From assembly GCA_018433015.1 (NCBI GenBank), contig JAHDSB010000028.1:1-61474 (forward strand): a stretch of DNA of 61,474 bases, given 5' to 3'. Shown here piece by piece: positions 1 through 2,603 of the stretch (position 1 is its first letter; each line of letters begins with the position of its first letter). The position numbers and the translations under genes were made by a program. Source of the DNA: Clostridia bacterium. GTDB lineage: Bacteria; Bacillota; Peptococcia; DRI-13; SV3-B141. Below the pieces are notes generated by a model. The model searched no databases and had not been told where the DNA came from. It was given only the letters and a program-made list of their open reading frames with translations.

Positions 1-303
1 AGTGTATTTGCTTAATAGGCCGAAAGTTAAACCACTTTTTGTACCAATGATGCCCATAATACTAGCTAACACAGCTAAAATCACGCTACTTAACAGGACA
101 GCCCAGAAAGCAGCCTTAAAGTTCAATGCTATACCGATGCTGCCACCGACCTGCATACTGGTAACGACGAATACATATCCCATTGCAACGAGGAGGATGT
201 TGCGAAAATTTTTGCGTTCAGAATGTGGTACCACGGACTTGCTATATTCATCCGATTGTGTTTGTTTAATTAGTTCATTTGTTTCCACTTTTTCTACACT
301 CAT
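1..303 (-). CDS. NCS1-family nucleobase/cytosine permease, N-terminal part (runs off the left edge)
   Basis: The minus strand is open from an ATG at 303 to the window edge (101 codons), with AGGAGG seven bases upstream. About 35 polar residues are followed by two hydrophobic segments with motifs such as MGYVFVVTSMQVGGSIGIAL and GIIGTKSGLTFGLLSKYT. The GG-x-IG helix followed by G-x-KSGL...LLSKYT is typical of the first helices of NCS1 transporters (cytosine, allantoin, hydantoin and uracil permeases), which import nucleobase-like compounds with a cation. It lies downstream of, and in the same orientation as, an isochorismatase-fold amidohydrolase, so a shared uptake and hydrolysis role is likely. 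The substrate cannot be told from the N-terminus. The plus-strand reading frame across the same bases looks like a shadow. Confidence 0.8.
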   Translation of the reverse strand, partial: MSVEKVETNELIKQTQSDEYSKSVVPHSERKNFRNILLVAMGYVFVVTSMQVGGSIGIALNFKAAFWAVLLSSVILAVLASIMGIIGTKSGLTFGLLSKYT

Positions 304-515: not shown

Positions 516-1187
516 CTACTTGATACTTTTCTCACATGGACAGTTTAATTCTTTCATAACATCTTTTGCTGATAGTACCTGACCGAAAGCTTCAGCAAAT
601 AAATTCAGCTCCATTTTACACCAATCATCAGCAGATGCACCCGCATGGTCATACGAACTAACAGTATCAGAAACAACTACAACGTTATAATCCCTGTGAT
701 ATGCGCCCCTCACAGTACTGTCGACGCACCAATTGATAACAGTTCCTGTTATGAGTAGCGTTTTAATACCCTTTGATCGAAGTATATTATCCAAATCTGT
801 GCGAGCGAAACAATCATAACCACATTTTTTTATGACTGTTTCCCCAGGGAGGGGTCGAAGTGCTGCAGCGATTTCTGTTTCGGGTTTTCCTTCCCAAAAT
901 GCACAATCAGGACTTGTAATTTTAATTCCCCTTTGTTCTGCTATATTCCAATAAAAGTTATAATTGAAATCCGGTCCAACTGTAAAAGCTGTATACACAA
1001 CAGGAATATTCTTATTACGGCAAAATGAAATAAGTTCAGATAATACCGACACTTGATTGCGGGCCATTGGAACTTCCAATGGAGCCCCTTCATCTAAAAA
1101 ACCATTTTGCATGTCAATAACCAGGAGCGCAGTTTCTTGTGGCTTCAGCTGAAAGACAGGTTCCCATTCCCAATATTTTTTTCCCAT
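516..1187 (-). CDS. Isochorismatase-family cysteine hydrolase (probable amidohydrolase)
   Basis: A 223-residue isochorismatase-fold hydrolase. The family cleaves amides or related bonds (nicotinamide, biuret, ureidoacrylate, N-carbamoylsarcosine) with an Asp-Lys-Cys triad. Here the triad is D25 in LLVIDMQNGF, K121 in VIKKCGYDCF and C154 in TGTVINWCVDST. A GTG at 1199 would lengthen it by four residues, but the AAAGGTG Shine-Dalgarno overlaps that GTG and sits nine bases before the ATG at 1187, so the ATG is preferred. The NCS1 permease gene follows 212 bp downstream on the same strand, and the MerR-isochorismatase fusion is divergent upstream. Context suggests catabolism of an imported cyclic or linear amide such as a ureide. 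The exact substrate is unknown. Confidence 0.88.
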   Translation of the reverse strand: MGKKYWEWEPVFQLKPQETALLVIDMQNGFLDEGAPLEVPMARNQVSVLSELISFCRNKNIPVVYTAFTVGPDFNYNFYWNIAEQRGIKITSPDCAFWEGKPETEIAAALRPLPGETVIKKCGYDCFARTDLDNILRSKGIKTLLITGTVINWCVDSTVRGAYHRDYNVVVVSDTVSSYDHAGASADDWCKMELNLFAEAFGQVLSAKDVMKELNCPCEKSIK

Positions 1188-1268
1188 ATTTTGATTCACC
1201 TTTCATCAGTTTAATAATATTAGTAAAACATAATCTCTAAAATCAACCTATACAATTTCTTACTATTA

Positions 1269-1279: not shown

Positions 1280-1505
1280 AAAACTATTTATGCTTGGATC
1301 CACCCTCCCCTCATTGTTATGGAAAGTAAAGTCACTTTCTTTCCTGCTCTCCGCTTCATCCTTCGAAAGCATCGAAAATATCTTTTTTACTGTTGAACAT
1401 ATTTTTTAATTACATTTACTATAAAACCCCCTCAGAAAATCAATTCATAGTGTGTATCATTTAAACTTGGGCTTAATTTATCATATGGGTTTTCAAAAAT
1501 CAATG

Positions 1506-1555
1506 AATGAGCCCGGATAAACATTGACCTGGGGTAATGTTTATCCGGGCTCATT
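1506..1555. repeat. Perfect 20-bp inverted repeat with 10-nt loop
   Basis: Positions 1506-1525 (AATGAGCCCGGATAAACATT) are the exact reverse complement of 1536-1555, separated by ten bases. It lies in the 498-bp gap between the hydrolase and MerR-fusion genes, which holds no convincing ORF. There is no T-tract on either side, so it is not an obvious intrinsic terminator. It could be an operator, a transcript-processing hairpin or a short mobile repeat. The rest of the gap is AT-rich with no other recognisable element except the paired TGGAAGTATCC sites. Confidence 0.75.
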
Positions 1556-1639
1556 ATAGATTTATACTTGCAAGCATTAACGATTATAGGTAACATATTA
1601 TTAAACGAATACTTATGATGATTAATAAACTATTTCTAC

Positions 1640-1685: not shown

Positions 1686-2603
1686 ATGATAAACATAAAA
1701 AAGGCTTCTGAGATCACGGGTTTGACCCCAAAAAGCATTAGGCATTACGAGAAAATCGGCCTTATTCCTCTCGCTAAAAGGACAAGGTCTGGATACCGAC
1801 AATATTCCGAGGATGATATTGATCGTCTGCACAAGATTCGGTATTACCGGGATATGAAATTCTCACTGCAAGAAATAGCCTCTCTCATTAACTCATCACT
1901 ACAGGATATTGAAGCAACTCTGGAAAGACAGTTAAAGATTTTAAGTAATAGTTTGAATGAATACCACTATGCACAATCAATTATTTATTCGACCCTTCAC
2001 ATGCGGAGTGGACTTCGTAGCCAGAATCTAACGGGCAGTCACAACATAGGCATAATTGCTATCGACCTGCAAAATGATATAATGGAGGGCGGCTCGTTAC
2101 CCTCCAAACGCGTTATCACTATTCTTGATCCGCTGAAAAAGCTTTTTGATCATGCACGAGCTGAAGGCATCCCGATCATATATATCTGTGATTGCCACAA
2201 AAAAGGAGACCCTGAACTATTGATTTGGGGTGACCATATGATAGAAGGGACTTACGGTGCCCAAATTATAGATATAGTTGCTCCTTGCGAAAAAGACTTC
2301 ATCATCAAGAAAAACCTTTTCAACGGCTTTATTCATACCAACTTGCAAAATACTCTGGATATGCTTGACATAGATACCTTACTTTTTACCGGATGGCGTA
2401 CTGATGTCTGTATCGCTCAAACTGCCATTGAAGCATTCTACCGTGGGTATCGCGTTGCCATAGCGGAAGATGGAGTGAATTCCACTACCCAAAATGAGCA
2501 CGATTTCGGCATGTCCCTCATGGGAATTAATTATGACTTTACTTTTTATACTTGCGAAGACGCTATTAAAGCGCTTCTTGGCGGGGAAATCTTAGAACCT
2601 TGA
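1686..2603 (+). CDS. MerR-type DNA-binding domain fused to an isochorismatase-fold hydrolase domain
   Basis: 305 residues in two parts. Residues 1-75 are a MerR winged helix (SEITGLTPKSIRHYEKIGLI, then RSGYRQYSEDDIDRLHKIR), followed by a helical linker to about 110. Residues 120-300 form an isochorismatase domain with D127 in IIAIDLQND, K209 in IIKKNLFNGF and C242 in RTDVCIAQTA, the complete family triad. MerR proteins usually end in a small effector-binding part; here an enzyme fold takes that place. The gene is divergent from a separate isochorismatase gene, so the protein probably senses (and may turn over) a related amide and controls that operon. Whether the domain is catalytic or only ligand-binding cannot be decided from sequence. 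The start ATG follows the weak purine-rich stretch AAAAGGGG. Confidence 0.88.
   Translation: MINIKKASEITGLTPKSIRHYEKIGLIPLAKRTRSGYRQYSEDDIDRLHKIRYYRDMKFSLQEIASLINSSLQDIEATLERQLKILSNSLNEYHYAQSIIYSTLHMRSGLRSQNLTGSHNIGIIAIDLQNDIMEGGSLPSKRVITILDPLKKLFDHARAEGIPIIYICDCHKKGDPELLIWGDHMIEGTYGAQIIDIVAPCEKDFIIKKNLFNGFIHTNLQNTLDMLDIDTLLFTGWRTDVCIAQTAIEAFYRGYRVAIAEDGVNSTTQNEHDFGMSLMGINYDFTFYTCEDAIKALLGGEILEP

Follow-up and report, generated by a model that had tools for sequence, protein, structure and literature searches.

The effector regions of MerR-type regulators are described in the accessible part of a review of the family as metal loops, redox loops and GyrI-like pockets (PMC9909328), and the words "isochorismatase" and "catalytic" are absent from the text examined. 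According to the available portions of two further papers, MerR regulators use promoters with 19–20 bp spacers (PMC8113463; PMC7911910), copA being a gene controlled by CueR (PMC7911910). The isochorismatase fold is known from enzymes such as the S. pneumoniae nicotinamidase (SpNic), for which the excerpted report gives the zinc ligands Asp53, His55, Glu64 and His71 and a triad of Asp9, Lys103 and Cys136 that works via a thioester, the zinc of nicotinamidase holding the ring nitrogen of the substrate (PMC6271260). Neither a fusion of these two modules nor MerR regulation with an isochorismatase effector domain was found described in the literature searched, which comprised titles and abstract openings on MerR with isochorismatase or nicotinamidase, in journals mostly outside the subscription titles. 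The window analysed here, a stretch of 61,474 nucleotides, carries such a fusion.

Domain architecture and distribution of the fusion

The MerR-isochorismatase fusion regulator is encoded on the forward strand at positions 1686..2603, in one open reading frame that begins with ATG and is translated into 305 amino acids. The MerR winged-helix DNA-binding domain occupies residues 3–69 (1692..1892, +) and was recognized by two Pfam models, MerR_1 (PF13411, E 1.1e-17) and MerR (PF00376, E 3.3e-13), both above cut-off. The isochorismatase domain, residues 123–279 (2052..2522, +), matched PF00857 with E 3.9e-35 and 121.9 bits against a cut-off of 27. A GyrI-like effector domain was absent, as MerR_1, MerR and Isochorismatase were the only Pfam matches at E ≤ 0.001. 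None of the NCBIfam families listed for the fusion reached its curated cut-off: the nearest for the DNA-binding half were NmlR (64.1 vs. 175 bits) and CueR (TIGR02044; 61.9 vs. 147.4 bits), the nearest for the enzyme half was BiuH (59.7 vs. 370 bits), and the nicotinamidase (PncA) equivalog NF008623 scored 40.8 bits, below its cut-off of 174.

An AlphaFold2 model was built from an alignment of 35 sequences taken from the window and the named loci; its mean pLDDT is 89, and its confidence drops to 54–65 across residues 91–120. As modeled, the protein contains a complete isochorismatase domain. In a fold search this C-terminal domain matched 3hb7 (Z 28.8, 1.4 Å over 179 residues) and 3eef (Z 27.7), with nicotinamidases also among the matches; the list was filled by isochorismatases, so the search tells little about the MerR half. 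Two helices of the monomer model, residues 72–86 and 90–109 (1899..2012, +), lie in a stretch of low confidence and may represent the MerR dimerization helix and linker. Pfam, the structural model and the fold matches thus agree with the preliminary description of this gene as a MerR winged helix joined to a full isochorismatase domain.

Five distinct fusions were identified: that of the window, a paralogue on a second contig (C62) of the same genome (G000), and one in each of the related genomes G017, G022 and G023, with identities to the window protein of 37% (C62), 78%, 52% and 51%, respectively. The bearers amount to 4 of the 25 genomes of the order, spanning three genera, and the identical four were recovered among 46 genomes of the class. 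No further fusion was present among the open reading frames of at least 100 amino acids in all loci collected for comparison. Broader genome draws were run at thresholds of 1e-45 to 1e-50 with the best few candidates per genome scored, a setting that diverged fusions may escape and in which an empty draw lacking any positive match carries no weight. A draw of 398 genomes of the phylum at 1e-50 gave three matches, namely two fusions (G000 and G022) and one stand-alone protein, and a second draw of 398 genomes, around another Bacillota genome, returned the same two non-own hits and therefore overlaps the first. Around the genome of locus L081, an alphaproteobacterium, 0 of 349 genomes matched, while 15 of 346 did so around that of L068, an actinomycete, none of them with a fusion, since all these matches start at query position 92 or later. 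In GTDB contigs, a single-protein scan found no relative; an alignment scan found three fusions among the best 80 of 335 relatives, matching contigs of a Peptococcaceae bacterium and two Clostridia MAGs. Regarding mobile elements, two of the 20 listed among 1498 matching plasmid records cover at least 80% of the query, both starting at residue 44 with 23% identity, and correspond to a gene for a cysteine hydrolase whose neighbour encodes a GlxA-family regulator. Among the 10 phage matches listed of 42, none covers 80%, the longest listed being an unannotated one over 28–262 at 23%, and the single IMG/VR relative is confined to the MerR part. Other MerR fusions were seen as well, one with an RDD domain in the genome of the window (L004 343–1800, −, on contig C99 of G000) and one with M48 peptidase domains in Kitasatospora (L095 6986–9547, +).

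Active-site residues and selective constraint

The catalytic triad of the fusion is encoded within 2064..2411 (+) by the codons of D127 (2064–2066), K209 (2310–2312) and C242 (2409–2411). In an alignment of the isochorismatase domain with 57 rows (5 fusions, 5 neighbouring enzymes and 47 others), the first position is D in 57, the second K in 56 and the third C in 56, one row lacking the equivalents of both K209 and C242. The three residues named in the preliminary description were correctly placed and fall on the near-invariant D, K and C of the family. Four further residues, D169, H171, E177 and H184 (2190..2237, +), are putative metal ligands: in sequence alignment they fall on the D-x-H...E...H of the S. 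mutans nicotinamidase 3s2s, an Asp-His-Glu-His set like that of the zinc ligands of SpNic. At D169, H171 and H184, 55 of the 57 rows agree, and the two that differ are the neighbouring enzyme of the window and its G017 counterpart; E177 is E in 5/5 fusions and in 50 of the 52 other rows. All seven residues are retained in all five fusions, so that homologues without the triad, which would have spoken against the earlier reading, were not encountered among them. Such a retained active site allows catalysis, although it is no proof of hydrolysis. The fusions also share residues that are rare elsewhere, namely Q129 (2/52), F212 (2/52) and N213 (0/52), which suggests a pocket modified relative to that of most enzymes.

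The dN/dS ratios were computed for the two closest fusion pairs. For G022/G023 they were 0.062 in the DNA-binding domain, 0.156 in the linker and 0.058 in the enzyme domain; for the window/G017 pair they were 0.089, 0.258 and 0.065, respectively, these latter ratios being rough because synonymous distances reached 1.1–1.4. Judged by these ratios, the enzyme half appears constrained about as strongly as the DNA-binding half. The linker is poorly conserved, with 13–24% identity between distant fusions. A separate observation concerns the loop before the catalytic cysteine, which reads GLH in the C62 sensor (L017 932–1867, −) and in its neighbouring enzyme (163–705, +) and GWR in the other four sensors, a hint that the pockets of sensor and neighbour may track each other.

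Neighbouring genes and promoter regions

In the window, a stand-alone isochorismatase-family hydrolase is located at 516..1199 (−); it was recognized by Pfam and is RutB/BiuH-like by NCBIfam scores below the cut-offs, and the residue alignment shows it to be without the metal-site residues. Beyond it, the contig edge truncates a gene resembling NCS1 cytosine permeases, of which the initial 101 codons are present at 1..303 (−) (PF02133, E 2.4e-7); the encoded part shares 83% identity with its G017 counterpart. In G017 and G023, where the permease is complete, it scores 323.3 and 312, respectively, just below the cytosine-permease cut-off of 326. A separate enzyme of the same fold does stand beside the regulator, as the preliminary description had reported, and the proposed search for MerR plus isochorismatase architectures, with their neighbours tabulated, yielded five fusions, among which an association with isochorismatase and permease genes is seen repeatedly rather than being missing. 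Four of the five loci have a stand-alone isochorismatase next to the fusion, and the fifth (G022) is divided by contig ends. In the window and in G017 the fusion is transcribed divergently from enzyme and permease; permease (PF02133), isochorismatase and fusion form one same-strand run in G023; in G022, permease and enzyme end one contig and the fusion begins another, adjacency being inferred from the G023 arrangement. On C62 (3,658 bases) the enzyme is convergent with the fusion and no permease is present on the contig. G000 has four isochorismatase matches, accounted for by its two fusions and the enzyme beside each; G017, G022 and G023 have 3, 4 and 7 matches, respectively, some away from the fusion loci.

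Several further genes were noted around these loci. The G022/G023 permease-enzyme-fusion operon seems to lie inside the ribosomal protein–rpoB cluster (L016 4528–15325 in G023; L018 778–6048 in G022), the genes being recognized by sequence. A sigma-54-dependent activator with a PAS domain adjoins the second fusion of G000 and runs off the C62 contig (L017 2808–3658), and in G017 (L014 4142–6245) the opposite flank of the fusion carries genes for an Asp/Glu/hydantoin-racemase-family protein and a DctM-family transporter.

The relationship between sensor and neighbouring enzyme differs between loci. In a quick isochorismatase tree, with long branches flagged and the placement of the C62 sensor unsure, the sensors of all five fusions cluster together (SH-aLRT 94), away from every neighbouring enzyme, and the neighbours are spread over three separate places; the linkage is consequently not that of one inherited pair. 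Sensor and neighbour are 25% identical in the window, 44% in G023 and 41% in C62; both members of the G023 and C62 pairs carry the same metal-site residues, which the neighbour in the window lacks. The sensor as a recent duplicate of the adjacent enzyme is unsupported in the window, given the 25% identity and the separate grouping of sensors in this long-branched tree, and an older common origin is left open by the G023 and C62 pairs. The earlier proposal that the regulator recognizes the same amide as the adjacent enzyme, or a related one, is weaker in the window itself than for those two pairs, because of the low identity and the different metal site.

Candidate promoters with MerR-type spacing were detected at other fusion loci. 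The sequence TTGACC-19-TAGAAT precedes the permease in G023, TTGACA-19-TAGAAT does so in G022, and TTGACT-19-TAAACT precedes the C62 enzyme. Under a strict criterion (TTGAC, 19 bases, then TA with at least 4/6 matches to TATAAT), which was set after the sites had been seen, 3 of 10 scanned regions contain a site (G022, G023 and C62), with Markov-shuffle frequencies of 0.0043, 0.0037 and 0.0063 in those three; the G022 and G023 sites are not independent, leaving two contexts in all. The whole 61-kb window holds two sites by the same criterion. The scanned regions of the window and G017 have no MerR-type promoter with a 19-bp spacer by the strict criterion, and a 20-bp spacer gave none either. 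By hand count, the G022 and G023 sites are each identical to the E. coli copA promoter at 25/31 bases, although their left and right half-sites (the latter GGATGCT) do not mirror each other as those of copA do. Searching with a pattern derived from these sites gave a single exact match in each of G022 and G023; the one match in G000 has three mismatches, and G017 has none.

In the window, the divergent intergenic region includes a block at 1464..1600 that is kept in G017 (72% vs. 50% for the remaining intergenic region), its edges having been chosen after the alignment was seen. A DNA search with 1455–1620 at E ≤ 1 did not recover the G017 block and gave only matches of 16–26 bases elsewhere in G000, so the conservation of the block rests on the alignment between flanking genes. 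At 1506..1555, two perfectly matching 20-nt arms flank a 10-nt centre, forming a palindrome that is a candidate operator or RNA hairpin; its 15 core pairs are all preserved in G017, where 3 pairs have changed at both positions, and the outer arms are not kept. Its RNA folding against shuffles gave z −5.1 (+) and −6.8 (−), with −3.9 for G017, and thus an RNA hairpin is possible instead of an operator; Rfam returned nothing near the gathering score on 1190–1700, the lowest E-value belonging to PK-repBA (23.5 bits vs. 45). In both the window and G017 the palindrome sits between two candidate 17-bp-spacer promoters assigned by eye: that of the hydrolase and permease, TTGATT-17-TAAATT at 1475..1503 (−), with TTGATT-17-TAGATT at the same place in G017, and that of the fusion gene, TTGCAA-17-TAACAT at 1568..1596 (+), with TTGTAA-17-TATCAT at the corresponding place in G017. 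Also by eye, the inner part of the palindrome resembles copA half-sites in G017, where it reads ACCTT...AAGGT; the window has ACATT...AATGT at this point. An inverted repeat with perfect 12-nt arms, AGGATACTTCCA / TGGAAGTATCCT, was likewise seen by eye at 1268–1279 and 1641–1652 of the window, near both ends of the divergent intergenic region, and is not at the same places in G017.

Proposed mechanism, alternatives and comparison with known systems

The fusion is probably a ligand-gated MerR regulator with a whole nicotinamidase-like domain as effector that controls the adjacent uptake and breakdown genes. Sequence and modeling show the domain architecture, the conservation of the active-site residues, the linkage of the genes and the 19-bp-spacer promoters of two contexts (G022/G023 and C62), and we infer the binding of metal and DNA, the ligand class, the direction of control and the role of the window palindrome. 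The effector domain would be a complete metal-dependent amidohydrolase, and the winged helix would contact an operator within the promoter region of the neighbouring hydrolase and permease genes. The ligand would be a small amide or ureide, probably an N-heterocyclic one transported by the NCS1 permease; it would enter the Asp-Lys-Cys/metal pocket, and its binding would alter the dimer and switch the promoter on. In the relatives, activation may proceed by re-phasing of the 19-bp spacer, the MerR device; in the window, where the earlier reading placed binding within 1200–1685, the palindrome at 1506–1555, kept in one relative, would serve as operator. NCS1 permeases carry N-heterocycles; this cargo and the hold of the nicotinamidase zinc on a ring nitrogen underlie our guess, made by analogy, of an N-heterocyclic amide or ureide as ligand. 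The locus is consistent with a one-component regulator that senses through a domain derived from an enzyme and controls an operon for uptake and hydrolysis. The preliminary reading as a whole survives in its fusion, triad and gene linkage, to which the MerR promoter spacing in two related genomes is added, and is weakened for the window where it assumes one and the same amide.

As a special case of this explanation, in line with the signal destruction raised in the preliminary description, the domain might be a working amidase that hydrolyses its inducer while promoter-bound and so switches itself off, which we consider rather unlikely. The seven active-site residues in 5/5 fusions and the strong purifying selection speak for it, as does the GyrI-like family, which includes both hydrolases and MerR effector domains (PMC5684135, in excerpt). 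However, a binding-only pocket may require the same residues, all five fusions carry F212 (2/52) and N213 (0/52) beside the catalytic lysine, unlike most enzymes, and BmrR, a MerR member with a GyrI-like domain, hydrolysed none of the compounds tested according to the same excerpt (PMC5684135). Within this special case, acylation of Cys242 could even define the ON state; that an inducer–Cys242 thioester on the DNA-bound regulator drives the uptake/breakdown operon until hydrolysis resets it, as a self-timing switch, is a still more doubtful idea.

It is improbable that the protein is mainly an enzyme, a hydrolase whose tethered DNA-binding domain represses its own locus in the absence of substrate (a trigger enzyme), with sensing secondary. 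The enzyme domain is complete and constrained, as this would demand, but the DNA-binding domain is equally constrained, a separate same-fold hydrolase already adjoins the fusion in 4/5 loci, and the spacing of the G022/G023 promoter is of the activator type. Equally hard to credit is that the fusion controls something else, with another regulator such as CueR reading the copA-like sites and the linkage being incidental. The window has no MerR-type promoter beside the fusion, copA is under CueR (PMC7911910, partial text) and G000 has other MerR proteins; yet the linkage recurs with three different neighbour enzymes, and the copA-like site occurs once each in G022 and G023, before the fusion operon, when a copper regulon would be expected at copper genes too. 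An assembly or annotation artefact, conceivable as the fusions come from draft assemblies with three in MAG records, was rejected as having a negligible chance, given that five distinct fusions, each in a single frame, come from four genomes belonging to three genera and that dN/dS is low in the DNA-binding and enzyme domains alike.

Returning to the ligand-gated regulator, a whole amidohydrolase that retains its active-site residues and is linked to different enzymes of its own fold offers a natural case for the evolution of an enzyme into a sensor. It poses the question of whether one domain can combine catalysis and sensing, and it could yield an amide-responsive genetic switch.

When compared to described MerR proteins, the winged helix is nearest to CueR/NmlR-like regulators in NCBIfam and the G022/G023 promoters resemble that of copA, but the fusion stays far under the curated cut-offs and an isochorismatase domain replaces their short metal-binding tail. 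It shares with the BmrR/EcmrR/TipA type a MerR DNA-binding domain followed by a large C-terminal small-molecule domain, and 19-bp-spacer promoters (PMC8113463, in part), whereas their effector is GyrI-like or TipAS, neither of which was found by Pfam in the fusion. The GyrI-like cyclopropanoid hydrolases likewise show a single domain family acting as hydrolase and as MerR effector; however, their fold is another one, and in the portion of the report available catalysis belongs to other members, BmrR being inactive on the compounds tested (PMC5684135). Outside the MerR family, MocR/GabR regulators, as described in excerpts, also join a winged helix to a whole enzyme-fold sensor, but with a GntR-type helix, an aminotransferase fold and no MerR mechanism (PMC5320631, PMC4944035). 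Finally, the nicotinamidase/3eef-type cysteine hydrolases have the fold, the Asp-Lys-Cys triad and the metal-ligand residues found in the fusion; they differ in being stand-alone enzymes, while the fusion bears F212 and N213 beside the catalytic lysine.
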